A stretch of DNA of 64,000 nt from Rhodococcus sp. Z13 (GTDB lineage: Bacteria; Actinomycetota; Actinomycetes; Mycobacteriales; Mycobacteriaceae): the NCBI RefSeq assembly GCF_025837095.1, contig NZ_CP107551.1, forward strand, positions 2,276,352 to 2,340,351, written 5' to 3'. Shown piece by piece: positions 1 to 11,230 of this stretch. Both the position numbers and the translations under genes were made by a program. The notes beneath the pieces were generated by a model, which had not been told where the DNA came from, did not search any database, and was given only the letters and a program-made list of their open reading frames with translations. How positions within the stretch are numbered: position 1 is the stretch's first letter; every line of letters starts with the position of its first letter.

Positions 1-244
1 CGGCGCCGCGGAAACGGCCGTCGGGACGCTTGAGGTAGAGGGAGGAGCGGCAGACCCCGATCACCTCGCACAGCTTCACGCACACCGCGCGCAGCAGTTC
101 CTCGAGGTCGGTGTCCTTGATCGCCTCGCCGGTGATCTCGGCGAAGGCGGTGATGACGTCGCGTTCGCGGTGGCGGGGGACGGTGGCCGTGCCCGGAGGG
201 TGGAGCGGGGTGGTCGCGGTTCCGGTGCTCGGCAGCAGGGTCAT
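1..244 (-). CDS. GAF-domain protein, probable regulator (partial, N-terminus only)
   Basis: The first 81 codons of a minus-strand gene that runs off the left edge. After a Pro/Thr-rich lead of about 25 residues, the segment with ITGEAIKDTDLEELLRAVC and CEVIGVCRSSLYL looks like the start of a GAF domain (small-molecule sensor). The C-terminal output domain is outside the window. ATG at 244. It is the last gene after ribBA, with a 79-bp gap that holds a palindrome like those of the downstream promoters, so it is a candidate regulator of the monooxygenase island. That role is inferred; a LuxR-type HTH output is likely but not visible. Confidence 0.6.
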   Translation of the reverse strand, partial: MTLLPSTGTATTPLHPPGTATVPRHRERDVITAFAEITGEAIKDTDLEELLRAVCVKLCEVIGVCRSSLYLKRPDGRFRGA

Positions 245-295: not shown

Positions 296-311
296 TTGTG
301 CAACATCACAA
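296..311. promoter_or_regulatory. 16-bp palindrome TTGTGCAACATCACAA
   Basis: Inverted repeat TTGTG-N6-CACAA between ribBA and the GAF-protein gene, 52 bp upstream of the latter's start. It matches the TTGT-N8-ACAA form of the palindromes at 3815 and 6624. Unlike those it has no -10-like hexamer 42 nt downstream, so it may be an autoregulatory site rather than an activation site. The link is inferred from sequence likeness. Confidence 0.45.
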
Positions 312-323
312 AGTAGTCGATGT

Positions 324-1568
324 TCAGGTCGCGATCACATCCGGAAGCGGCGTGTCGAGCACGTGCCCCATGCGGTCCCGCTTGGCGCGCAGGTAGCGCA
401 GGTTGTGGGTGGTGACGGCGGTCGGCAGCGACACCCGGCCGACGATCTCGATCGAGTAGCCCTCCAGCCCGCCGAGTTTGCTCGGGTTGTTGGTGATCAG
501 CCGCATGCGCCGCACCCCCAGATCGGCGAGGATCCGGGCGCCGACGCCGTAGCTGCGCGAGTCGTCCGGCAGCCCGAGTGCGCGGTTGGCGTCGACGGTG
601 TCGAGGCCCTGTTCCTGCAGCGAGTAGGCGCGGATCTTGTGGGCGAGGCCGATGCCGCGGCCCTCGTGGCCGCGCAGGTAGACCAGCACCCCGCAGCCCT
701 CGCGGGCGATCTCGGCGAGGGCCCGTTCGAGCTGGGCGCCGCAGTCGCAGCGCAGCGAGCCGAGGATGTCGCCGGTGAGGCATTCGCTGTGCACCCGCAC
801 CAGCACCCCCTCGCGGCTGCGGCCGGCGGCGGCGACGTCGCCCATCACCAGCGCGAGGTGCTCGCTGCCGTCGAGCACCGACCGGAACGCCACCGCCCGG
901 AACATGCCGAACTCGGTGGGCATCTGTGCCTCGGCGACGTACTCGACGAACGGCTCGGTCGCGGCCCGGTAGCGCACCAGATCGGCGATGCGCAGCAGCG
1001 GCAACCCGTGGGCGGCGGCGAACGCGGTCAGGTCGTCGCCGCGGCGCATCGAGCCGTCCTCGGCGACGATCTCGCCGATCACCCCCACCTCGCCGGCGCC
1101 GGCCAGGCGCAGCAGGTCCACGGCGGCCTCGGTGTGCCCGGCTCGGGCGAGCACCCCGCCCTCGCGGGCGCGCAGAGGGAAGACGTGGCCCGGGCGGCGC
1201 AGATCGGTGGGGGCGGTGGCCTCGTCGGCGAGCGCCCGGACCGTGGCGGCGCGGTCGGCGGCGCTGACCCCGGTGCCGGTGGAGACGTGGTCGACGCTCA
1301 CGGTGAAGGCGGTGCCGTGCGCGTCGGTGTTGTGCTCGACCATCAGCGGCAGGCCGAGGGCGTCGGCGCGGTGCGCCGGCATGGGTGCGCAGACGATGCC
1401 GGTGGTGTGGCGCACGAGGAACGCCATCTGCTCGGCGGTGATCGTCGACGCGGCGGCGACGAGGTCGCCCTCGTTCTCGCGGTCGTCGTCGTCGACCACG
1501 ACGACCAGTCCGCCCGCGGCGAGGGTCTCGACCGCGAGTTCGACCTGCTGGGCCGGGGTGCGGGGCAT
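324..1568 (-). CDS. ribBA: Bifunctional 3,4-dihydroxy-2-butanone-4-phosphate synthase / GTP cyclohydrolase II
   Basis: 414 residues. The N-terminal RibB half carries the DDDDRENEGD metal/substrate motif near residue 25. The C-terminal RibA half has the zinc site HSECLTGDILGSLRCDCGAQ and the GHEGRGIG loop. Together they make the two starting compounds of riboflavin synthesis from ribulose-5-phosphate and GTP. ATG at 1568 has GGAG 9 nt upstream, overlapping the flavin reductase stop 5 bp away. Its place downstream of a flavin reductase and flavin monooxygenases suggests a flavin supply for the island rather than the housekeeping copy; no other rib genes adjoin it. Confidence 0.93.
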   Translation of the reverse strand: MPRTPAQQVELAVETLAAGGLVVVVDDDDRENEGDLVAAASTITAEQMAFLVRHTTGIVCAPMPAHRADALGLPLMVEHNTDAHGTAFTVSVDHVSTGTGVSAADRAATVRALADEATAPTDLRRPGHVFPLRAREGGVLARAGHTEAAVDLLRLAGAGEVGVIGEIVAEDGSMRRGDDLTAFAAAHGLPLLRIADLVRYRAATEPFVEYVAEAQMPTEFGMFRAVAFRSVLDGSEHLALVMGDVAAAGRSREGVLVRVHSECLTGDILGSLRCDCGAQLERALAEIAREGCGVLVYLRGHEGRGIGLAHKIRAYSLQEQGLDTVDANRALGLPDDSRSYGVGARILADLGVRRMRLITNNPSKLGGLEGYSIEIVGRVSLPTAVTTHNLRYLRAKRDRMGHVLDTPLPDVIAT

Positions 1569-1573
1569 GGCCA

Positions 1574-2071
1574 CTACTCCTGTTCTGCGCTGTGGGTGCC
1601 GAAGGTGCGCCGGTGATAGGTCAGCGGCGGACGGTCGTGGCGATCGGCCTCGGCGACGTGGCCGAGGACCACCACGTGGTCGCCGCCGTCGACGAGGTCG
1701 GCGACGGTGCACGCCACCCAGCCGGGCGCGCCGGTGATGCGCGGGGCGCCCGCCGACAGCGACCAGGCGACGCCGGCGAACTTGTCGGGACCCTTGCGGG
1801 CGAAGGTCAGTGCCAGGCCGTCCTGGCCGTGGCCGAGGATGTTGACCCCGAACCGTCCCTGTCCGCGCACGACGGTGAGCAGGTCCGATCCGCGGTCGAG
1901 GGCGACGAGCACCATCGGAGGATCCATCGACAGCGACGCGAAGGCGCTGACGGTGGTGCCGTGCGGGCGGTCGCCGTCGAGTGCGGTCACCACCGTGACG
2001 GGGGTGCACACGCCGGCCATCACGTCCCGGAACACGGTGGTGAGGTCTTCGGTGAGCGGGGTGTTCATCAT
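1574..2071 (-). CDS. Flavin reductase (HpaC/DIM6-NTAB family)
   Basis: 165 residues, a full-length flavin_reduct domain with the typical VTALDGDRPHGTTVSAFASL start, the FGVNILG segment and a C-terminal DGGDHVVVLGHV strand. Family members reduce FMN or FAD with NAD(P)H and pass the free reduced flavin to a two-component monooxygenase. It lies between a luciferase-like monooxygenase (60 bp upstream) and ribBA (5 bp downstream), so it most likely feeds reduced flavin to the monooxygenases of this cluster. Start ATG at 2071; a second ATG follows at codon 2. Confidence 0.9.
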   Translation of the reverse strand: MMNTPLTEDLTTVFRDVMAGVCTPVTVVTALDGDRPHGTTVSAFASLSMDPPMVLVALDRGSDLLTVVRGQGRFGVNILGHGQDGLALTFARKGPDKFAGVAWSLSAGAPRITGAPGWVACTVADLVDGGDHVVVLGHVAEADRHDRPPLTYHRRTFGTHSAEQE

Positions 2072-2131: not shown

Positions 2132-3229
2132 TCAGGCGCCGGCCGGGACCTTCGCCTTCATCTTGTGCAGCTCGGGAACGACCTTCTCGCCGAACAGCTT
2201 CAGCGACTTCTCGGCCTGGTCGATCGGCAGGCCACCGAACGCGAAGGCGGCGTTGACGAAGACGTCACCGACCATCTCGTGCCGGGCCGCGTACTTCTCG
2301 ACGATCTGCTCGGGGGTGCCGTAGATGTTGGCCTCGACGTAGGCGTCGGCCGCGGCCTCCATGCCGGCCTCGCGGATCATGTCGGCGCCGGCCTGGTAGG
2401 TCTCGTAGCCGCGGGTGTTGCGCCAGTGCTCGCCGGCGAAGTCGTAGTGCTTGATCACCGACAGGAAGTAGCGGGCGGTGTGCTCGTAGGCGAGGCGGCG
2501 GGCCTCCTCGGCGTCCTCGTGGCAGATGACGAAGTCCTGCACGACCGGCGGCAGCGGTTCGGTGTTCCACCGTTCCCGGTACAGATCGCGCCAGCGGTTG
2601 ATCGCCTCGGCGTGCTTGGCGAACTCGTACTGCACGAAGGTCATCATGCGTACCCCGAGATCGGCGATGACCGGCACCGAGTCGGGGGACATGGCGGCAC
2701 CGAACAGGCGGTCGCGGGTCCACTCGTAGGCCGGGTTCGGGGCGGGCCGGATCTCCACGCGGGCCTGCTTGTAGAACTCGCCGTCGGGGTTGTCCACGAT
2801 GCCGGTGCGCAGGCCCTCGATGGTGAGGTTGGCGGCCTCGACGAACCGGCCGCGGGCCTCGTCCATGGGGATGCCGAAGGCCTCGTACTCCATCTTCGCC
2901 AGGCCGCGGCCCATGCCGTAGAGGGCGCGGCCGCCGGACATCATGTCGAGCATCGTCAGCTTCTCGACGACGCGGACCGGGTCGTTCCACGGCAGGATCA
3001 CCGCGCCGGTGCCGAGTTTGATCGTCGAGGTGCGGCCCGCGATGTAGGACATGATCTGCAGGTTGTCCGGGCACATCGAGTAGTCGTCGAAGTGGTGTTC
3101 GGCGGACCAGACGGCGTCGAAGCCGTACTTCTCCGCGTCGACGCCCATCTCGAGTTCGCGGAGGAAGACCTCCTGGTCGCTGACGTTCTCGTGGTAGTTC
3201 TGGAAGACCAGCAGCATTCCGACGTCCAT
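2132..3229 (-). CDS. LLM-class flavin-dependent monooxygenase
   Basis: 365 residues of the bacterial luciferase-like (TIM-barrel) family. Visible signatures are VWSAEHHFDDYSM near residue 40, the strand with KLGTGAVILPW, and MLDMMSGGRALYGMGRG. Such enzymes use reduced FMN from a separate reductase to insert or add oxygen. AAGGAG lies 8 nt before the ATG. It follows the NTF2-like gene (45 bp) and precedes the flavin reductase in one transcription unit. Substrate not determined from sequence; Baeyer-Villiger type II chemistry is one possibility. Confidence 0.88.
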   Translation of the reverse strand: MDVGMLLVFQNYHENVSDQEVFLRELEMGVDAEKYGFDAVWSAEHHFDDYSMCPDNLQIMSYIAGRTSTIKLGTGAVILPWNDPVRVVEKLTMLDMMSGGRALYGMGRGLAKMEYEAFGIPMDEARGRFVEAANLTIEGLRTGIVDNPDGEFYKQARVEIRPAPNPAYEWTRDRLFGAAMSPDSVPVIADLGVRMMTFVQYEFAKHAEAINRWRDLYRERWNTEPLPPVVQDFVICHEDAEEARRLAYEHTARYFLSVIKHYDFAGEHWRNTRGYETYQAGADMIREAGMEAAADAYVEANIYGTPEQIVEKYAARHEMVGDVFVNAAFAFGGLPIDQAEKSLKLFGEKVVPELHKMKAKVPAGA

Positions 3230-3274: not shown

Positions 3275-3697
3275 TCAGCCGAGGAAGACGGCTCGGGTGT
3301 GTTCGGTATCGAGGTACTCCTTGACCGACTGGATCTGCCCGTCGCGGACCTCGAAGACGAAGTGGTAGAGGTTGTTGTAGACGCGGCCGTTCCTCATCTC
3401 GGAGTACGACTCGGTCTCCACCGCGACGCGGTCGCCCTCGGCGGTCCACGCCAGCGGGGTCAGCCGGATCGCGCCGGTCTTCGTCCCCGTCGACAGACCG
3501 GAGAGCATCGCGCGGAACTCTTCCTTGTTCTTGGTGCCGGAGATGCCCTCGATGGTGCCGGCGACCCACCAGGTGGCGGTGGGGGCGAGATAGCCCATGA
3601 TCGCCTCGACGTCGCCGGTGGAGAAGACCTCCATGAATTCCGCGACGAGCTTCTTGTTGGCCGCTTCGAGGCTTCCGGCACTCGCGATGTTGTCCAT
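3275..3697 (-). CDS. NTF2-like / SnoaL-fold protein
   Basis: 140 residues with the cone-shaped NTF2-like pattern: VAEFMEVFSTGDVEAIMGYLAPTATWWV at the N-terminus and FVFEVRDGQIQSVKEYLDT at the C-terminus. Such proteins are small isomerases, hydrolases, cyclases or ligand binders. First gene of the unit NTF2-LLM-reductase-ribBA-GAF. GGAAGGAG lies just before the ATG. A promoter with the shared palindrome lies 70-133 bp upstream. Could act on a reactive intermediate (epoxide, lactone or ketone); function not established. Confidence 0.8.
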   Translation of the reverse strand: MDNIASAGSLEAANKKLVAEFMEVFSTGDVEAIMGYLAPTATWWVAGTIEGISGTKNKEEFRAMLSGLSTGTKTGAIRLTPLAWTAEGDRVAVETESYSEMRNGRVYNNLYHFVFEVRDGQIQSVKEYLDTEHTRAVFLG

Positions 3698-3766: not shown

Positions 3767-3830
3767 ACACTAGCCGGGAAGTCTGTGGCGTGGGTCACGC
3801 GAGTTCTCCGGCGGTTGTAGGGCGCTACAA
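3767..3830 (-). promoter_or_regulatory. Promoter with upstream palindrome for the NTF2-LLM-ribBA unit
   Basis: On the minus strand, TTGTAGGGCGCTACAA (3815-3830, perfect 6-bp arms) is followed exactly 42 nt later by TAGTGT (3767-3772), a plausible -10. No good -35 hexamer is present at 16-18 nt spacing, as expected for an activator-dependent promoter. The palindrome centre would lie near -62, a class I activator position. The same spacing occurs at 6576-6639 and 10269-10332. Confidence 0.6.
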
Positions 3831-3841
3831 CGACCCGGGGG

Positions 3842-4567
3842 TCAACGGCGGGAGCTGAACGAGCTCATCAGCCCGCCGTCGGTGGCCACCACCGACCCGG
3901 TCATGTACGGCGAGTCCGCGACACCCACGACGACCTGCGCGATCTCCTCGGGAAGACCGGTGCGGCCCATGGGGATCGCCGCGAGGATCCGTTCGCGGGC
4001 CCGCCCCGTCAGGGCGGAGGTCATGTCGGTGTCCACGAAACCGGGGATCACCAGGTTCACCCGGATCTGCCGCGGCGCGAGCTCGACGGCGAGCACCTGG
4101 GTCAGCCCGTGCAGACCGGCCTTCGCCGCCCCGTAGGCCACATCTCCGGGAAAGCCCCGGAATCCGACCACCGCACCGACATTGATGATCGCCGACCCGG
4201 CGTCGAGTCGCGGCGCGACGTTGCGGGCCAGCTCGAACGCGCCGGAGAGGTTGGTGCCGATCACCTCGTCCCAGTGCGCCCGCGACAGGTCGCCGATGCG
4301 GCCGCCGCGATGCACCCCGGCGGCGTTGACCACCACGTCGAGCGAACCGAACCGTTCGAAGACGATGTCGACACCGCGGGCGAGCGAGTCCGGATCGGCG
4401 ATGTCGGTGTGGATCTCGACCACCCGGTCCGGATGGGTCCACTGCGCACTGGCGGGTTTGCGGGCGAACACCGCGACCCGGTCGCCGCGGGCGGTCGCCT
4501 GCTCGACGACCGCCCGGCCGATCCCGCGCGACCCGCCGGTGACCAGCCAGTTCTTCGCCTCGGTCAT
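3842..4567 (-). CDS. SDR-family oxidoreductase with altered catalytic serine
   Basis: 241 residues. Rossmann motif TGGSRGIG at residues 10-17, NAAG motif, and Tyr/Lys pair in VAYGAAKAG. The strand that normally ends in a catalytic Ser reads INVGAVVG, with Ala (codon GCG) where FabG-like proteins have IGSVVG. Classical SDRs need this Ser to position the substrate carbonyl, so activity may be weak, altered or lost. ATG overlaps the hydrolase stop as ATGA (4564-4567), so it is translationally coupled. Expected role would be alcohol/ketone interconversion in the island. Confidence 0.85.
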   Translation of the reverse strand: MTEAKNWLVTGGSRGIGRAVVEQATARGDRVAVFARKPASAQWTHPDRVVEIHTDIADPDSLARGVDIVFERFGSLDVVVNAAGVHRGGRIGDLSRAHWDEVIGTNLSGAFELARNVAPRLDAGSAIINVGAVVGFRGFPGDVAYGAAKAGLHGLTQVLAVELAPRQIRVNLVIPGFVDTDMTSALTGRARERILAAIPMGRTGLPEEIAQVVVGVADSPYMTGSVVATDGGLMSSFSSRR

Positions 4568-5364
4568 CGCTTCAGGAATCCCGTCAGCGCGGCGAGATAG
4601 CGATCGCGGTCCTCGAGGAACGGTGCGTGCCCGACCCCGGTGAACTCGACCAGTTCGGCGCGGGCGTTGACGCCGCGCACGGCCTCGGCCGCGGAGAACG
4701 GCACGAAGGCGTCGGCGGTGCCGTGCAGCAGCAGGATCGGCACCTCGAGCGCGGCCATCTCCTTGCGCAGGTCCACCGTCGCGAGGTCGCGCAGCGAGTC
4801 GTCGCCGCGCGGACCCATCGCCATGAACATGTCCCAGATCGACTCCAGCACGGCCTCACCGGGATTCTCCGCGCACACCGCCGCGGCGACCCCGCGGAAG
4901 GTCTCGGCACGGTTCGCGGCCACGGCCGCGAGGGTGCCCTCGACGTCGTCGACCGACCCGCCGTGCGGCCAGTCGTCGGTGGCGGTGTAGCGCGGCGACG
5001 CGCCGCCGGTGAGCACCAGTCCCGACGCCCGGTCGCCGAGCTGGGCGGCGGCGACGGTGGCGACGGCCCCGCCGAGCGACCAGCCGTTGATCACCGGCCG
5101 GTCGAGCCCGAGATGGTCGACGAGACGCACGACGTCCTCACCGAGCGCGGCGATCGACACGTCCTCGAAGTCCTTGTCGGAGCGGCCGCAGCAACGCAGG
5201 TCGAGGGTGATCACCTCGTGGCCGGCGGCGAGCAGCGCCGGCAGGGTGGTGTCCCAGGCGCGGGCGTTGGCGCCCCAGCCGTGCACCAGCACGATCGGCC
5301 GGCCGCTGCCGCGGTGGTGTTCGAAGTAGATGCTGCGGTCGTTCTCGACGGGCAGATATCCCAT
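4564..5364 (-). CDS. Alpha/beta hydrolase (internal start within the fused frame)
   Basis: 266 residues from the internal ATG. Oxyanion motif VLVHGWG, nucleophile elbow GWSLGG, acid in LLHGTADAFVP and base in GVGHAPF give a complete Ser-Asp-His triad. AGGAGGACACC directly precedes the ATG, which argues for separate translation as well as readthrough from the monooxygenase. Its stop overlaps the SDR start by 4 bp. Likely an esterase or lactonase acting on the monooxygenase product; family membership is seen, substrate is inferred. Confidence 0.8.
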   Translation of the reverse strand: MGYLPVENDRSIYFEHHRGSGRPIVLVHGWGANARAWDTTLPALLAAGHEVITLDLRCCGRSDKDFEDVSIAALGEDVVRLVDHLGLDRPVINGWSLGGAVATVAAAQLGDRASGLVLTGGASPRYTATDDWPHGGSVDDVEGTLAAVAANRAETFRGVAAAVCAENPGEAVLESIWDMFMAMGPRGDDSLRDLATVDLRKEMAALEVPILLLHGTADAFVPFSAAEAVRGVNARAELVEFTGVGHAPFLEDRDRYLAALTGFLKR

Positions 5365-6519
5365 GGTGTCCTCCTGAACGAGTAGGGAAGGGGGCAAGGA
5401 AGTGGTCTGGGGGGCCGGATGCTCCCGCAGGGCCCGCGGCACCACGGGGGCGCGGTCGCGGAAGCGTGGCATGACGTGCTCGGCGAACAACTCCATCGAT
5501 CGCAGCACCTTGTCGTGCTCGAGGCCGCCGAAGCGCATCCAGCAGATCAGGTGCTGCAGCCCGGTCTCGTCGTGCAGCGCGTCGAGCTGCCGGATCAGGC
5601 CGTCGGGGTCGCCGACGTAGACGACCCCGCCGTCGCGCAGTCCCTCGACGGTGATGCCGCCGGCCTCGTCGGTGGCCGAGACCAGTTCGGCGTAGCGCTC
5701 GTAGGTCGGCGGCACGTCCTCACCCTGCGGCACCGCCGACAGCGCGGCGTCGAAGTACCAGGTCAACGCCTCGCGGGCGTTGTCCACCGCGGCCTGCTCG
5801 GTGTCGGCGAGGTGGATCTGCCAGTTCATCGGGAAATCCAGTTCCAGGATGTCGCGGCCCAGATCCCGCAACCGGCGCTTGGCGTCGACGACGAAGCCGT
5901 TCAGTTCGGGCATCGTCATCAGGGTCGGGGTGACGAGCATGTTGTAACCCTGGTCGGCGGCGAGATCGAGGGTCTCGGGGCTGATCGAGGCGATGTAGAT
6001 CGGCGGGGTGGGGCGCTGCACCGGGGTGGGGCGGCAGTCGACGTCCTCGAGGTCGAAGTGCTTGCCGTGGTACGAGAACGGTTGTCCGGCCGGCTTGCTC
6101 CACAGTCCGCGCACGATCTCGAGGGCCTCGGTGAACATGTCCCGGCTCTCGCCCTGCAGGTCGCCGACACCCATGTTGCGGAACTCCTGGGGCTGGTAGC
6201 CGCGGCCGACCCCGAAGTCGAGGCGCCCGCCGGAGAGCACGTCGACCATCGCGTAGTCCTCGGCGATGCGCACCGGCCAGTCGAAGGTCAGGTTGCTCAC
6301 CGCGATCCCGATGCGCATGCGCCGGGTGCGTTGCGCGATCGCGGCCGCGGCGACCTGCGGGGAGGGCATCGACCCGTAGTCGCTGCCGTGGTGTTCGGCG
6401 AGCCACACCTCGTCGAAGCCCAGTTCCTCGGCGTATTCGATCTGTTCGAGCATCTCGCGGTAGGCCCGCGGGAAGTCGCGGTCGGGGCATTCGAGGACGT
6501 AGAAGATGCCGAACTTCAC
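4564..6519 (-). CDS. LLM-class monooxygenase continuous in frame with an alpha/beta hydrolase
   Basis: One open frame of 651 codons with no stop between two recognisable proteins. Residues 1 to about 350 are a luciferase-like monooxygenase (KFGIFYVLECPDRDFPR start, EVWLAEHHGSDYGSMPSP, VLSGGRLDFGVGRGYQPQEF). Residues from about 386 are an alpha/beta hydrolase. The linker is Pro-rich (PVVPRALREHPAPQTTSLPP). GTG at 6519 is preceded by AGGAGG. A second strong AGGAGG sits 5 nt before an internal ATG at 5364, so the hydrolase can also be made alone. Either a true fusion or a monooxygenase gene that lost its stop codon. A monooxygenase joined to a hydrolase would suit lactone or ester formation followed by cleavage. 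Confidence 0.8.
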   Translation of the reverse strand: MKFGIFYVLECPDRDFPRAYREMLEQIEYAEELGFDEVWLAEHHGSDYGSMPSPQVAAAAIAQRTRRMRIGIAVSNLTFDWPVRIAEDYAMVDVLSGGRLDFGVGRGYQPQEFRNMGVGDLQGESRDMFTEALEIVRGLWSKPAGQPFSYHGKHFDLEDVDCRPTPVQRPTPPIYIASISPETLDLAADQGYNMLVTPTLMTMPELNGFVVDAKRRLRDLGRDILELDFPMNWQIHLADTEQAAVDNAREALTWYFDAALSAVPQGEDVPPTYERYAELVSATDEAGGITVEGLRDGGVVYVGDPDGLIRQLDALHDETGLQHLICWMRFGGLEHDKVLRSMELFAEHVMPRFRDRAPVVPRALREHPAPQTTSLPPSLLVQEDTMGYLPVENDRSIYFEHHRGSGRPIVLVHGWGANARAWDTTLPALLAAGHEVITLDLRCCGRSDKDFEDVSIAALGEDVVRLVDHLGLDRPVINGWSLGGAVATVAAAQLGDRASGLVLTGGASPRYTATDDWPHGGSVDDVEGTLAAVAANRAETFRGVAAAVCAENPGEAVLESIWDMFMAMGPRGDDSLRDLATVDLRKEMAALEVPILLLHGTADAFVPFSAAEAVRGVNARAELVEFTGVGHAPFLEDRDRYLAALTGFLKR

Positions 6520-6575
6520 GGGCGCTTCCTCCTGACGACGACGAATGCCCCTGTGGGTGGGGCGGTGTGGCACCG

Positions 6576-6639
6576 ACGCTAGGACGTGAGCCGCGTCACG
6601 TGGTCGAGCTCGCCGACGCCGTCTTGTGGGGATCCACAA
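6576..6639 (-). promoter_or_regulatory. Promoter with upstream palindrome for the LLM-hydrolase-SDR unit
   Basis: The perfect palindrome TTGTGGGGATCCACAA (6624-6639, 6-bp arms) lies inside the last codons of the acyl-CoA synthetase gene. Exactly 42 nt downstream on the minus strand is TAGCGT (6576-6581), a -10-like hexamer 57 bp before the GTG at 6519. This matches the layout at 3767-3830. Embedding the operator in coding sequence suggests selection for the site. Confidence 0.6.
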
Positions 6640-8233
6640 ACAGCCCGGCGCCGGCCCGGCTGCGCAGCGTCTTCTTGTCGAGCTTGCCGACGCTGGTGCG
6701 CGGCAACGCGTCCACCACCACGACCCGTTCGGGCACCCACCAGCGCGGCACCCGCTCGGCCAGCGCCGCCCGGACCTGCTCCGGGTCGAGGGACGCGCCG
6801 GCCGCGGGCACGACGAACGCCAGCGGCCGTTCCTGCCAGCGTTCGTGCGGCACCGCGATCACCGCGGCCTCGGCGACCTGCGGGATCGTCGTCAGAGCCT
6901 GTTCGAGGGCGACGGAGCTGATCCACTCGCCGCCGCTCTTGATCAGGTCCTTGGCCCGGTCCACGATCGTCAGATAACCCTCGGGGTCGATGGTCGCGAT
7001 GTCGCCGGTGCGCAGCCAGCCGTCGGTGAACGCTTCGGGATGTTCGTCGCGGAAGTAGCGTTCGGCCACCCACGGTCCGCGCATGAGCAGTTCCCCGCGG
7101 TCGACACCGTTGTGGGGAACTACAGCGCCGTCGTCGTCGACGAGCTTCCAGTGCAGGCCGGGCAGCAACCGGCCCTGCCGGCGGATGTACTCGTAGCGGC
7201 GCTGCGGGTCGTCGTCGGCCGCGCGCGGTGGCCGCGCGAAGGTGCCCATCGGGGACAGCTCGGTCATGCCCCAGCCCTGATAGGCGCGCACGCCGAGGTC
7301 CTCCTCGATGCTGCGGATCAGCTCGGGGGTGGGGGTGGAGCCGCCGAGCACCAGCGCCCGTAGGCAGGTCAGGTCGATGCCCTCGGCGAGGGCGTGGCGC
7401 ACCAGGTCCACCGCGACGGTGGGCACCATGCCGGTGTAGGTGACCTGCTCGGCCGCCAGGATCGCCGCGAGGTCGGGCACCGCCGGGTGCGGTCCGGGCA
7501 GTACCTGGTTCGCGCCGGTCATCAACGCGGCGAAGGGGATTCCCCAGGCGTTGGCGTGGAACATCGGCACGATGTGGCAGACGGTGTCGCGTTCGCTGAT
7601 CGCGTGCCCGTCGGCCAGGCACGCGGTGAAGGTGTGCAGGTACAGGGCGCGATGCGAATAGCCCACACCCTTGGGGGATCCGGTGGTGCCCGAGGTGTAG
7701 CACAGGGCGGCCAGGTCGTTCTCGTCGCGCGGCACCGGTGCCGGCAGCGGGGAGGCCGCGGCGATCAGTTCGTCCTGCGAACGCAGGCCGGGGGCCTCGC
7801 CGTCGGTGGTGAGCACCGTCGTGCCGGGCCGGCGCGTCCGGGCGGTGTCGAGCAGGTGCAGCAACGACGAGTCGGCGAAGATCACCCGGTCGTCGGCGTG
7901 GTCGACGATGTAGGCGATCTCGTCGGCCTCGAGCCGCAGGTTGAGGGTGTGCAGCACCGCCCCGGCCAGGGGGGCGGCCAGGTACAGCTCGAGATGACGG
8001 TGGTGGTTCCACGCCAGGGTGGCGACCCGGTCGCCGGGCCGCACCCCGAGGTCGACCAGTGCCTGCGCCAGGCGCAGCACCCGGTCGGCGTACTCGCCGT
8101 AGCTGTACTCGTGGACCTTCTCGCCGTCGCGGTAGTCGGTGATCGTCTTCGCGGCGAAGAAATCCCGGGCGCGGTAGAGGAAGTCGGTGATGAGCAGCGG
8201 GGAGGCCGAGCCGGTGGCCGGCACCGGGGTCAT
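6596..8233 (-). CDS. AMP-binding acyl-CoA synthetase (medium/long-chain type)
   Basis: 545 residues of the ANL superfamily. P-loop CYTSGTTGSPKGV, the A5 region GWGMTELSPMG, the hinge DGWLRTGDIA and the C-terminal catalytic lysine region LPRTSVGKLDKK are all intact. It would activate a carboxylic acid as acyl-AMP and then the CoA thioester, for entry into beta-oxidation. ATG at 8233 overlaps the stop of the upstream LLM gene (ATGA). In this island it probably takes the acid released after monooxygenation and hydrolysis; the acid's identity is unknown. Confidence 0.9.
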   Translation of the reverse strand: MTPVPATGSASPLLITDFLYRARDFFAAKTITDYRDGEKVHEYSYGEYADRVLRLAQALVDLGVRPGDRVATLAWNHHRHLELYLAAPLAGAVLHTLNLRLEADEIAYIVDHADDRVIFADSSLLHLLDTARTRRPGTTVLTTDGEAPGLRSQDELIAAASPLPAPVPRDENDLAALCYTSGTTGSPKGVGYSHRALYLHTFTACLADGHAISERDTVCHIVPMFHANAWGIPFAALMTGANQVLPGPHPAVPDLAAILAAEQVTYTGMVPTVAVDLVRHALAEGIDLTCLRALVLGGSTPTPELIRSIEEDLGVRAYQGWGMTELSPMGTFARPPRAADDDPQRRYEYIRRQGRLLPGLHWKLVDDDGAVVPHNGVDRGELLMRGPWVAERYFRDEHPEAFTDGWLRTGDIATIDPEGYLTIVDRAKDLIKSGGEWISSVALEQALTTIPQVAEAAVIAVPHERWQERPLAFVVPAAGASLDPEQVRAALAERVPRWWVPERVVVVDALPRTSVGKLDKKTLRSRAGAGLFVDPHKTASASSTT

Positions 8234-9270
8234 GCGCTCACCTCCTGCCGGGCGGCGGCGACCGCCGCACGCACCTGCGGGATCACCTTCGAGGTGAGCA
8301 GCTCGATGCGGGCCGAGCCGCTCTCGACCGGCTCGCCCGGCAGCTGCGCCCAGAAGTGCACGTCCTTGATCTGCGGCCGCTCGCACAGCAGAGTGGTCAG
8401 TTCCGTCACGGCGGTGTCGGTGTCCCACAGCACGAACGAGCCGGCGTCGAGCAGATCCTGCGGGGTCGCGAAGGTGGGGGTGGACTCGGCCGGGCCGAAG
8501 GCGCCCATCTCGATGTAGCCGTTGATCTGGTAGAGCGCGTGCTCGCCGATGCGGGCCCACTCGCGTTCGGGATCCTCGGCGACGATCGCCCACTGCCCGG
8601 CGTAGATGCGGCCCTCCTCCCGGGAGCGGCCCGCCCGCTCGAGCGCGTCGAGATAGGCCTCGTGGTGGGTGTTCTGGGTGCTGAGGAAACCGTCGGCGAT
8701 GCGCGCCACCCGTTCGATGGCCGGTTCGGCCATCGCTCCGACGAGCAGCTGCGGGGTGGATTCCGGGTGGGGGGTGACCGGCAGGGCCGGGAAGTCGTAA
8801 CGCTTGCCGTGGAATTCGGCGGGCGCCCCCGACCACGCCCGCCGAATCACCTCGACACCCTCCTCGAGGAGGCTGGGGCGGTGCCGCAGCGACCGTCCGA
8901 AGGCGTCGAACTCCGGTTGCCAATATCCCTGGCCCACACCGAGATCGAACCGTCCTCCGGTGAGCAGCGACAGGGTCGCGGCGTCCTCGGCGAGACGGAT
9001 CGGATTGTGCAGCGGGGAGACGATGAGGTTGGTGCCGATGCGCAACGAGCGGGTGCGGGCCCCGATCGCGCCGGCCAGCACGAACGGCGACGGGGTGTAC
9101 CCGTCGGCCATGAAGTGGTGTTCGGTGAGCCACACCGAGTCGATGCCGCGGCTCTCGGCCCAGGCGATCTGTTCGAGGCTCTCCTCGTAGAAACGGGTGA
9201 AGGTGCGCGGCCACCGCGCGGGATTCCGGAAGTCGTACCACAGGCCGAAGGTGCAGGATTGATCGGTCAC
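8230..9270 (-). CDS. LLM-class flavin-dependent monooxygenase
   Basis: 346 residues from a GTG at 9270 with GAGGAGA 7 nt upstream; the open frame continues further upstream but without family sequence. Luciferase-like signatures are SVWLTEHHFMADGYTPSP, LRIGTNLIVSPLHNP and LLTGGRFDLGVGQGYWQPEF. Third LLM protein of the island and clearly diverged from the other two. Coupled by ATGA to the acyl-CoA synthetase. Upstream lies a 13-bp hairpin that separates it from the SDR at 9397. Confidence 0.87.
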   Translation of the reverse strand: MTDQSCTFGLWYDFRNPARWPRTFTRFYEESLEQIAWAESRGIDSVWLTEHHFMADGYTPSPFVLAGAIGARTRSLRIGTNLIVSPLHNPIRLAEDAATLSLLTGGRFDLGVGQGYWQPEFDAFGRSLRHRPSLLEEGVEVIRRAWSGAPAEFHGKRYDFPALPVTPHPESTPQLLVGAMAEPAIERVARIADGFLSTQNTHHEAYLDALERAGRSREEGRIYAGQWAIVAEDPEREWARIGEHALYQINGYIEMGAFGPAESTPTFATPQDLLDAGSFVLWDTDTAVTELTTLLCERPQIKDVHFWAQLPGEPVESGSARIELLTSKVIPQVRAAVAAARQEVSA

Positions 9271-9333
9271 GGAGGGTCTCCTCGATCGTGGTTGCATCGG
9301 GCACGCACTATGTCGTGGGTCACAGGATGGGAT

Positions 9334-9367
9334 GCCGGTCCCGGTGGGGGAAGGCACCGGGACCGGC
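9334..9367 (-). terminator. Hairpin terminator after the SDR gene
   Basis: Arms GCCGGTCCCGGTG (9334-9346) and CACCGGGACCGGC (9355-9367) pair perfectly over 13 bp with an 8-nt loop, 29 bp past the SDR stop on the minus strand. No U-run follows, as is common in high-GC actinobacteria. It would isolate the SDR unit from the LLM-synthetase unit. Confidence 0.65.
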
Positions 9368-9396
9368 GGGATTGTCGAAGGATCCAAACGGGACGG

Positions 9397-10149
9397 TCAG
9401 AAATTGCCCTTGGCGGCCCAGCCGCCGTCGACCGGGTAGATCTCGCCGGTGAGGAAGCTGCCCTCACGCATGAGATAGGCGACCATCGAGGCGATCTCCT
9501 CCGGCAGACCCAGGCGCCGCACGATGTGCGCGTTGGCGTTGGCCTCGCGCATCTCGTCGGTGATGTCCGCCAGGATCGGGGTGTCGATGGTGCCCGGGCA
9601 GATCGCGTTGATGAGGATGTTGTGCGGGCCGTACTCGAAGGCGGCCTGCTTGGTCAGCGACACCACCCCGCCCTTCGCCGCCGAATAGGAGGCGAGATTG
9701 GGCAGGCCGCGCAGCGCCGCCATCGAGGAGATGTTCACGATGCGGCCGCCGCCGCGCTCGATCATGCCGGGGATGACGGCCTGCATGCCGAGCCAGACAC
9801 CCTTGAGATCGGTATCGATGACGTTGTCCCAGGCCTCCTCGGTGAGCCCGACGACGCTGTCCTCGCTGAGCATGTTGACCACACCGGCGACGTTGGCGAG
9901 CAGGTCGACGCGTCCGTGCCGGTCGACGACCTCGCGGACCGTGTCGGCCCAGCTGCTGCGGACCCGCACGTCGAGTTCGTGGGCCTCGGCCTTGCCGCCG
10001 AGCTGCGCGATCGCGTCGACGGTGGCCGAGGCGTCCTGGATGTCGGCGGCGATGACGGTGGCGCCCTCGGAGGCGAGGCGCGTGGCGGTGGCCTGCCCGA
10101 TGCCCTGGGCGGCGCCGGTGACGATGGCGATCTTTCCGTTCAGCGTCAT
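9397..10149 (-). CDS. SDR-family oxidoreductase (3-oxoacyl reductase / alcohol dehydrogenase type)
   Basis: 250 residues with a complete classical SDR set: TGAAQGIG at the N-terminus, NVAG, catalytic Ser in VNISSMAALRG, and Tyr/Lys in SYSAAKGG. It ends in the usual GEIYPVDGGW. NAD(P)-dependent oxidation of an alcohol or reduction of a ketone. It forms its own unit with the shared palindrome promoter upstream and a hairpin downstream. Co-regulation with the other island units suggests it makes or removes the ketone substrate of the monooxygenases. Confidence 0.9.
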   Translation of the reverse strand: MTLNGKIAIVTGAAQGIGQATATRLASEGATVIAADIQDASATVDAIAQLGGKAEAHELDVRVRSSWADTVREVVDRHGRVDLLANVAGVVNMLSEDSVVGLTEEAWDNVIDTDLKGVWLGMQAVIPGMIERGGGRIVNISSMAALRGLPNLASYSAAKGGVVSLTKQAAFEYGPHNILINAICPGTIDTPILADITDEMREANANAHIVRRLGLPEEIASMVAYLMREGSFLTGEIYPVDGGWAAKGNF

Positions 10150-10268
10150 AGTGTGCTCTCTTCTCGTGGGGGAGAGGGGATCGTGCGGTGCGGAATCGTT
10201 CGTGCGCAGACGATTTCGGTGGGCGATCGTCGGATCTCGCCGGAGGCCGTGGGGTCTGCGCCGTCCAC

Positions 10269-10332
10269 ACCATACGAACCCGGTGTGGCGCAGCGCACAC
10301 TTTTCTCCGGTGCGCTTTGGAGGCCTACACAA
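10269..10332 (-). promoter_or_regulatory. Promoter with near-palindrome for the SDR gene
   Basis: On the minus strand, TTGTGTAGGCCTCCAA (10317-10332, one mismatch from TTGT-N8-ACAA) is followed exactly 42 nt later by TATGGT (10269-10274). Between them, 10283-10300 carries a second interrupted repeat with arms GTGTG and CACAC. The operator overlaps the stop of the acyltransferase gene. The identical 42-nt spacing at three promoters is the main evidence. Confidence 0.55.
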
Positions 10333-11230
10333 CCGGTGGTCGGTGCGCGGCGCGGCGCGCCTGCACGTCCGCGGTCCACAGCGGCTGCAGCATGTGCCAG
10401 TCCGCCGGGTGCGCGGCGATACCCGCGGCGAACCGGTCGGCCAGGCGCTGCGTCGTGGCCCGCACCCCGCCGTCGGTGTCGATCGGGGCGCCGACGTCGA
10501 CACCCCACCCGTCGGGGGTGAACCAGCAGTGCACCGGCAGCAGCGGCGCGCCGGTGCCGAGCGCCAGGCGGGCCGGACCCGACGGCATGCAGGTGGGCTC
10601 GCCGAAGAAGGTGACGGGCACCCCGGAGCCGGTGAGATCGCGTTCGCCGAGCAGACCGACGACGCGGCCCTGGCGCAGTCTTTCGGTGAGCAGATCGAAG
10701 GGTGGGGCGGTGCCGCCGGTGAGCGGGACGATCTCGAACCCGAGCTGCTCCCGGAAGCGGACGAAGCGCCGGAACAGCGACTCCGGATCGAGGCGCTCCG
10801 CCACGACCGTCGGCCGCCCGATGCGCCGCACCACCCACACCCCGGCCAGATCCCAGTTGCCGCTGTGCGGCAGCGCGAGGATCACCCCGCGCCCGCCGGC
10901 GACCGCGGCGTGGATGTGCTCGATGCCGGTCGCGGCGGCCTCGATGCGGTCGGCGAGCCACCCGGGATCCATCGCGGGCAGCCGGAACGCCTCGCACCAG
11001 TAACGCGCGTAGGAGCGCAGGCCGGCCCGCACGAGATCGTCGGGTACCTGCTGCGGGGCGGTGCCGAGCACCCGCGCGAGATTGCGGCGCAACTGGACCG
11101 GTCCGCCGTCGCGGGCTGCGCGGTCGGCGGCGCGGTCGAACAGGCCCAGGGCCCACCGCTCGGGCAGGGTGCGCACCAGTCGCCAGCCCGCCGCGTAGCC
11201 GAGGTCGGCGACGCGGGCTCTCACGTCCAC
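10325..11230 (-). CDS. LPLAT-family acyltransferase, PatA-like (phosphatidylinositol mannoside acyltransferase)
   Basis: 301 residues of the LpxL/HtrB-like lysophospholipid acyltransferase family. The catalytic motif HSGNWD sits in ILALPHSGNWDLAG, and VGLLGERDLTGSGVPVTFFG is typical of the family. PatA of mycobacteria adds an acyl chain to phosphatidylinositol mannosides, but this copy is not next to pgsA or pimA, so it may be a paralogue with another acceptor. It reads toward the island but ends at its promoter, so it is probably a separate gene. Confidence 0.8.
   Translation of the reverse strand: MDVRARVADLGYAAGWRLVRTLPERWALGLFDRAADRAARDGGPVQLRRNLARVLGTAPQQVPDDLVRAGLRSYARYWCEAFRLPAMDPGWLADRIEAAATGIEHIHAAVAGGRGVILALPHSGNWDLAGVWVVRRIGRPTVVAERLDPESLFRRFVRFREQLGFEIVPLTGGTAPPFDLLTERLRQGRVVGLLGERDLTGSGVPVTFFGEPTCMPSGPARLALGTGAPLLPVHCWFTPDGWGVDVGAPIDTDGGVRATTQRLADRFAAGIAAHPADWHMLQPLWTADVQARRAAHRPPVV

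Follow-up and report, generated by a model that had tools for sequence, protein, structure and literature searches.

Class I activation, as known from CRP, proceeds from a site at -61.5. Regulators of the PucR type are common in actinobacteria, and few of their operators are known; those of GabR, AdeR and PutR, so far as the literature consulted describes them, differ from TTGTN8ACAA. The PucR-type GabR of Corynebacterium glutamicum activates gabTDP and recognises inverted repeats that lie at -87 to -23, upstream of the promoter (PMC7652997). In the C-terminal dimer of MabR (Rv2242) from Mycobacterium tuberculosis the recognition helices lie ~34 Å apart, which suits a palindrome (PMC11617747). 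In Mycolicibacterium, EtnR1 and regulators of the CdaR/GAF kind adjoin alkene monooxygenase genes, as the relevant section of a review reports (PMC8784404). The present analysis concerns a window of 64,000 nucleotides from Rhodococcus sp. Z13 (contig NZ_CP107551.1, positions 2,276,352 to 2,340,351), the left part of which carries a catabolic gene cluster and the beginning of a gene for a GAF-domain regulator. Promoters of this cluster share a 16-bp palindrome, TTGTN8ACAA, at a nearly fixed distance from the -10 hexamer. The site, its spacing, its conservation and its link to loci bearing the regulator were computed; sequence alone yields the predicted operator, its geometry and its five target promoters. 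The comparative evidence makes it likely that the cluster-encoded regulator, with its GAF, GGDEF-like and PucR-type helix-turn-helix (HTH) domains, is a class I activator of a local catabolic regulon with five promoters. Coordinates below refer to the window unless a genome position or a locus is named.

Palindromes and promoter layout in the Z13 genome

The preliminary description of this DNA had placed three minus-strand palindromes exactly 42 nt before the hexamers TAGTGT, TAGCGT and TATGGT, and all three arrangements are present in the sequence. The predicted activator site TTGTAGCGCCCTACAA (3815..3830) faces TAGTGT (3767..3772) at the promoter of a SnoaL/NTF2-like gene. The site TTGTGGATCCCCACAA (6624..6639), within the 3' end of an acyl-CoA ligase gene, faces TAGCGT (6576..6581) at the promoter of LLM2, a luciferase-like monooxygenase (LLM) gene. 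The third predicted site, TTGTGTAGGCCTCCAA (10317..10332), has one mismatch to TTGTN8ACAA, overlaps the 3' end of an acyltransferase gene (10325-11230) and faces TATGGT (10269..10274) at the promoter of an SDR dehydrogenase gene. The promoters sharing the layout are in fact five, two having been overlooked. At LLM3 the predicted site TTGGATCCTTCGACAA (9372..9387) is followed after 42 nt by CATCCT (9324..9329); all sites and hexamers named so far lie on the minus strand. An exact site at genome position 2274693, 1.6 kb left of the window, is followed after 41 nt by TACGTT and precedes the leaderless-looking kinase gene of a kinase/acyl-CoA-dehydrogenase operon. The spacings at the five promoters are 41, 42, 42, 42 and 42 nt. 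The lack of a good -35, noted earlier for the first three, extends to all five: the hexamers 15-19 nt upstream of the -10 match TTGACA at no more than three of six positions. As a -10 of LLM3, CATAGT at 59 nt was rejected because it is not common to all relatives, unlike CANNNT at 42 nt.

Exact copies of TTGTN8ACAA occur at six places in the 4.53-Mb genome, four of them within 8.3 kb (2274693 to 2282990), a stretch that runs from 1.6 kb outside the window into its left part. The two remaining copies are coding (in glycosidase-like and DndC-like genes), and neither has a TANNNT at 30-54 nt. The window holds nine matches with at most one mismatch, a number reached in 0/100 shuffles (mean 2.95). 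TANNNT occurs in the window at a rate of 0.00064 per position and stands at exactly 42 nt in 3/18 site directions, for which the binomial P, calculated only after the pattern had been noticed, is ~2e-7. A refined consensus, TTGKRNNNNNCYMCAA, is found at five places in the genome, four of them within the cluster; since it was built from these same sites and the reversed pattern matches equally often (4 forward and 5 reverse rows each), only its clustering is informative.

One near-palindrome, CTGTAGTTCCCCACAA (7110-7125), in the ligase gene, was dropped, being coding and without a -10 at 34-51 nt. It is kept in relatives, probably through coding constraint. Two further elements were seen near the predicted promoters. 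A conserved GTGA-N6-CCACA-like element (~3784-3799, minus strand) lies between site and -10 of the SnoaL/NTF2 promoters, and TGTGATCCACGACATA (~9308-9323, minus strand) immediately follows the -10 of the LLM3 promoters. Both resemble a CRP site.

Conservation of site and spacing

The regulator is encoded in 7/18 Rhodococcus genomes, and an orthologue of LLM2 is found in the same seven. The preliminary description had named loss of the palindromes or of the spacing from orthologous promoters as the outcome that would tell against its reading. In the seven genomes both are retained in 35/35 orthologous promoters, which keep the arms and have [TC]ANNNT at 41 or 42 nt; these sites were initially found by the motif itself. 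Pairwise identity across the five predicted activated promoters is 1.00 in the arms, 0.31-0.71 in the 25 nt upstream and 0.37-0.71 in the first 30 nt of the spacer.

We searched genome contigs with the regulator alignment; the best 80 of 267 relatives represent 70 distinct loci. The close set comprises 32 loci with a regulator at least 56% identical, from Rhodococcus, Gordonia, Williamsia, Thermocrispum, Prauserella, Saccharopolyspora, Amycolatopsis, Pseudonocardia, Actinomycetospora, Geodermatophilus and two metagenome-assembled genomes; the distant set comprises 38 loci, nearly all at 26-43%. Downstream of exact sites in the close set TANNNT is seen 20 times at 41 nt and 11 times at 42 nt, against 9 times at the remaining 88 spacings between 0 and 89 nt. 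With up to one mismatch in the site, the counts are 22, 28 and 14 at 41, 42 and 43 nt, against 26 at the remaining 87 spacings. The spacing is thus conserved in relatives, as had been expected; the distance of exactly 42 nt holds for the three promoters first noted and widens to 41-43 nt across all promoters and species. At least one spaced site is present in 31/32 close loci, and the exception, Pseudonocardia dioxanivorans, has CATGCT at 42 nt before LLM3. The binomial value for the 31 exact sites, 1.7e-65, overstates significance, as do binomial values here generally, because the loci are related; the contrast between neighbouring spacings does not depend on such values. As a control, 40 of at least 95 exact palindromes counted in the 11 regulator-less Rhodococcus genomes gave TANNNT at 40-43 nt in 0/80 directions.

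The peak is weaker in the distant set, with 20 occurrences at 40-43 nt against 21 over 86 other spacings, the 20 falling in 13/38 loci. They include sites ahead of the regulator's own gene (Solirubrobacterales L098, Nocardioides L108), of SDR genes (L097, L102) and of transporter-like genes (L091, L102); some of the distant-set sites look like chance matches. Among 88 sites with a -10 at 40-43 nt, the distance is 42 nt in 36, 41 nt in 29, 43 nt in 16 and 40 nt in 7; these sites were chosen on that range, and the spacing histogram gives the unselected view. Of the 37 LLM3 promoters that possess a site, 29 have CANNNT at a spacing of 42 or 43 nt; two genomes are counted twice here (L034/L060 and L035/L066), and without the duplicates the figure is 27/35. 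In nine loci (L070, L071, L074, L076-L078, L081-L083) a T[TC]GACT-like hexamer, or no clear hexamer, takes the place of TANNNT before an SDR gene, ~42-43 nt past the palindrome that lies downstream of the regulator. A distinct conserved palindrome, CCTAACGTTCGTTAGGCAA-like, lies directly upstream of LLM1 in Pseudonocardia clusters with a diverged regulator (LLM1/regulator intergenic region of L101, L107, L109, L110, L113-L115, L117, L119 and L127), and its presence suggests an additional regulator.

Start codons give an indication of where transcription might begin. In 33/111 promoters with the layout a long frame starts with ATG or GTG 6 or 7 nt past the hexamer, and such codons occur only 9 times at the other 14 offsets between 0 and 15. 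Leaderless starts of this kind fit a transcription start 7-8 nt past the hexamer, near the distance of about 7 nt predicted earlier, and would put the centre of the palindrome between about -61.5 and -63.5. In Pseudonocardia, seven kinase promoters whose site is degenerate, its pattern picked after inspection, have spacings of 30, 41, 41, 42, 51, 52 and 53 nt, which step by about one helical turn. The predicted sites thus lie where class I activators are expected, near -61.5 or one helical turn away, and the -35 is weak or missing in 5/5 of the Z13 promoters.

The candidate activator and competing explanations

The N-terminal part of the candidate activator is encoded at 2..244 (minus strand) and the remainder lies left of the window; the whole gene (locus L001, 10737-12596) encodes a protein of 619 aa, P0013. 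Pfam models detect GAF (1.3e-21), GGDEF_2 (1.3e-9) and HTH_30 (2.6e-16) domains in it. The HTH_30 domain (PF13556, residues 555-613) scores 59.6 bits against a cut-off of 27, which marks the protein as PucR-type. A GGDEF-like domain (PF17853; here residues 379-504, E 1.3e-9) occurs in about half of the PucR-type family. At E 0.001 five Pfam families are detected, and the classical N-terminal PucR domain (PF07905) is none of them, its place being taken by GAF. The GAF protein had been put forward as the activator, bound near -62, and the comparative evidence favours both proposals (35/35 promoters in Rhodococcus; in the close set 31 exact sites at 41-42 nt against 9 at the 88 other spacings).

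The regulator gene itself is preceded by a further palindrome, TTGTGATGTTGCACAA (296..311, minus strand), the fourth of the preliminary description. It is real and lacks the shared layout, overlapping instead a -10-like TACTTT (310..315, minus strand) whose final two T are its own first two. A TANNTT whose last two T open the palindrome is found before the regulator gene in 8/8 Rhodococcus (the seven genomes and L062), and a -10 at 41 or 42 nt downstream was seen in 0/6 orthologues. For Rhodococcus, the lack of a hexamer at 41/42 nt led us to abandon the notion that this site activates like the others. A palindrome over the -10 occupies a repression position, and the site is proposed as an operator through which the regulator probably represses its own gene. 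The proposal is limited to Rhodococcus, because in Thermocrispum the regulator gene is preceded by an imperfect palindrome without the TANNTT hexamer, and in the other 26 close loci the pattern used finds no palindrome before it.

From these observations we infer a scheme of binding, activation, transcription start, autorepression and ligand sensing. A dimer of the regulator would bind the 16-bp palindrome, with the consensus TTGTGG-N4-CYACAA, whose centre stands ~61.5 to 63.5 bp ahead of the transcription start. The bound regulator would recruit RNA polymerase in class I manner to promoters that lack a good -35 and retain a recognisable -10, TARCGT-like or, at LLM3, CANNNT. The GAF domain would sense a signal, presumably a compound of the pathway. 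The units under control would be kinase/acyl-CoA dehydrogenase, SnoaL-LLM1-flavin reductase-RibAB, LLM2-hydrolase, LLM3-ligase and SDR. In Rhodococcus the regulator, with a site over the -10 and start of its own gene, would probably limit its own synthesis.

Several observations weigh against activation by the local regulator. The palindrome is not over-represented genome-wide, at six places in Z13 against 11 for the reversed pattern; the informative signal is clustering together with spacing, not genome-wide abundance. No spaced site is present in 25/38 distant loci, and several of the 20 distant sites stand in coding sequence or ahead of unrelated genes. The pattern used finds no site in 12/49 LLM3 upstream regions, and the LLM3 promoters of Gordonia L064, L065 and L067 and of Williamsia L063 and L088 have no [TC]ANNNT at 42/43 nt. 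In Pseudonocardiaceae loci, ten exact palindromes just 3' of the regulator lack TANNNT at 39-44 nt, several of them having T[TC]GACT there instead. The LLM2 site is coding, and constraint on the ligase 3' end may explain part of its conservation. The loci compared are related, so that the counts are not independent. Finally, the control set of 40 palindromes is unmatched for intergenic position.

Among other explanations, the one that survives best has the palindrome bound by a different activator encoded elsewhere, the GAF/PucR protein being a mere target or neighbour. It would account for the upstream region of the regulator being without such a palindrome in most loci outside Rhodococcus (0/26 by the pattern used). 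Yet site and regulator co-occur, while the 40 control palindromes from regulator-less genomes lack the -10 spacing; the spacing peak persists in loci chosen solely by a distant regulator, where the neighbouring genes differ; and in Z13 the site is restricted to the cluster, two coding matches aside. We regard this explanation as unlikely. Alternatively, the palindrome might be the operator of a repressor, the regulator acting from upstream or by looping until an inducer releases it, and the site over the regulator-gene -10 in Rhodococcus is indeed an ordinary position for repression. The five catabolic promoters, however, have no good -35 and hold the site at an activation distance fixed to 1-2 bp, and characterised PucR-type regulators are mostly activators in the part of PMC7652997 that treats them; repression is accordingly given a very small probability. 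Chance or shared ancestry, with short palindromes retained through kinship of the clusters, would agree with the genome-wide count and with the conserved coding near-palindrome at 7110-7125 that has no -10, and is scarcely credible given invariant arms beside flanks and spacers that fall to 0.31-0.71 identity and a spacing that is equal across families and between unrelated promoters of a single genome.

Cluster genes, proposed pathway and comparison with known systems

The genes of the cluster within the window lie on the minus strand. The operon headed by the SnoaL/NTF2-like gene (3275..3697, PF12680 6.9e-16) continues with LLM1 (2132..3229, PF00296 1.8e-57), a flavin-reductase-like gene (1574..2071) and, at its end, a RibAB-like gene for flavin supply (324..1568; orthologues by tblastn), the functions of the last two being read from sequence. 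LLM2 and an alpha/beta hydrolase occupy a single open frame (4564..6519; PF00296 3.6e-65 for the LLM part), which could encode a monooxygenase-hydrolase fusion or contain a second start for the hydrolase at an internal ATG, 5364. Frames of 654 codons are seen in L060 and L062 as well, whereas LLM2 forms its own frame, of 391-393 codons, in Gordonia L064, L065 and L067. Further along are the acyl-CoA ligase gene (6596..8233, PF00501 3.2e-80), LLM3 (8230..9270, PF00296 5e-51) and the SDR dehydrogenase gene (9397..10149, PF13561 5.1e-63). At L001 1572-8221 (plus strand) lie genes that read as branched-chain amino-acid type ABC transporter-like, convergent with the acyl-CoA dehydrogenase gene; no palindrome site is found at them.

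Altogether the cluster contains SDRs, three luciferase-like monooxygenases, a hydrolase, an acyl-CoA ligase, a flavin reductase, RibAB, a SnoaL-like protein, a kinase and an acyl-CoA dehydrogenase. The kinase P0008 and the acyl-CoA dehydrogenase P0009 match the two halves of ACAD11 (8v3v, 8.8e-27; 8v3u, 7.6e-88), and the pair is homologous to ACAD10/11. The pathway for 4-hydroxyacyl-CoA that involves LvaA/LvaC and ACAD10/11 is treated in PMC12440821. By analogy, the gene content suggests a route from alcohol to ketone, ester or lactone, 4-hydroxy acid and CoA ester, followed by beta-oxidation. A wider proposal, whose parts are put forward jointly and with somewhat less confidence than would make it an even prospect, is that an actinobacterial GAF/PucR subfamily, from Rhodococcus and Pseudonocardiaceae to Thermoleophilia, has a common operator and a common class I geometry (40-43 nt, or shifted by a helical turn). 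The subfamily might switch on an undescribed pathway with SDR, luciferase-like monooxygenases (type II Baeyer-Villiger type) with their own flavin supply, and hydrolase; an alicyclic or ketonic compound would be converted to a 4-hydroxy acid and its CoA ester and passed to a split ACAD11-like kinase and dehydrogenase. The site code marks target genes of a widespread uncharacterised catabolic cluster and so offers a handle on its substrate, and the compact promoter/regulator pair is a possible biosensor.

Neither the PucR-type domain kind nor the class I geometry is new; novelty lies, as far as the open-access literature was searched for site, regulator type and pathway, in the operator, the regulon and the geometry of the GAF-bearing subfamily. 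That search, like the preliminary description, found no described regulon with this site, and we therefore regard operator and regulon as new and the kind of regulator as known. In NCBIfam the C-terminal part of the regulator matches PmfR (33.4 bits) and AdeR (32.7 bits) best, far under the curated cut-offs of 800 and 700 bits, so that it is not a member of either equivalog.

Like GabR, the Z13 protein is an actinobacterial regulator with a PucR-type HTH and local catabolic targets, predicted in its case. GabR lacks a GGDEF-like domain and binds a pair of 21-bp repeats at a single promoter, whereas the Z13 regulator combines GAF and GGDEF-like domains and has one predicted 16-bp site at each of five promoters. 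The nearest solved relative of its HTH part is MabR (9f80, E 3.8e-5), which shares the GGDEF-like domain and the PucR HTH, and whose helix separation of ~34 Å is close to the 11-bp distance from TTGTG to CACAA; MabR differs in its globin-like N-terminal domain and fatty-acid target, where the Z13 regulator has a GAF domain and predicted catabolic targets. The setting recalls EtnR1, in that PucR-type HTH or CdaR/GAF regulators stand beside actinobacterial monooxygenase genes; there the monooxygenase is of another class, and the review passages on these regulators describe no operator (PMC8784404). With class I activation by CRP the predicted promoters share a site near -61.5, a poor -35 and spacings differing by about one helical turn. 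The regulator belongs to another family, and class I activation would have it contact the alpha C-terminal domain of the polymerase. The kinase/dehydrogenase pair of the regulon resembles LvaA/LvaC and ACAD10/11 and might act on 4-hydroxyacyl-CoA. Three luciferase-like monooxygenases and a flavin supply of its own set the Z13 cluster apart from the LvaA/LvaC system.

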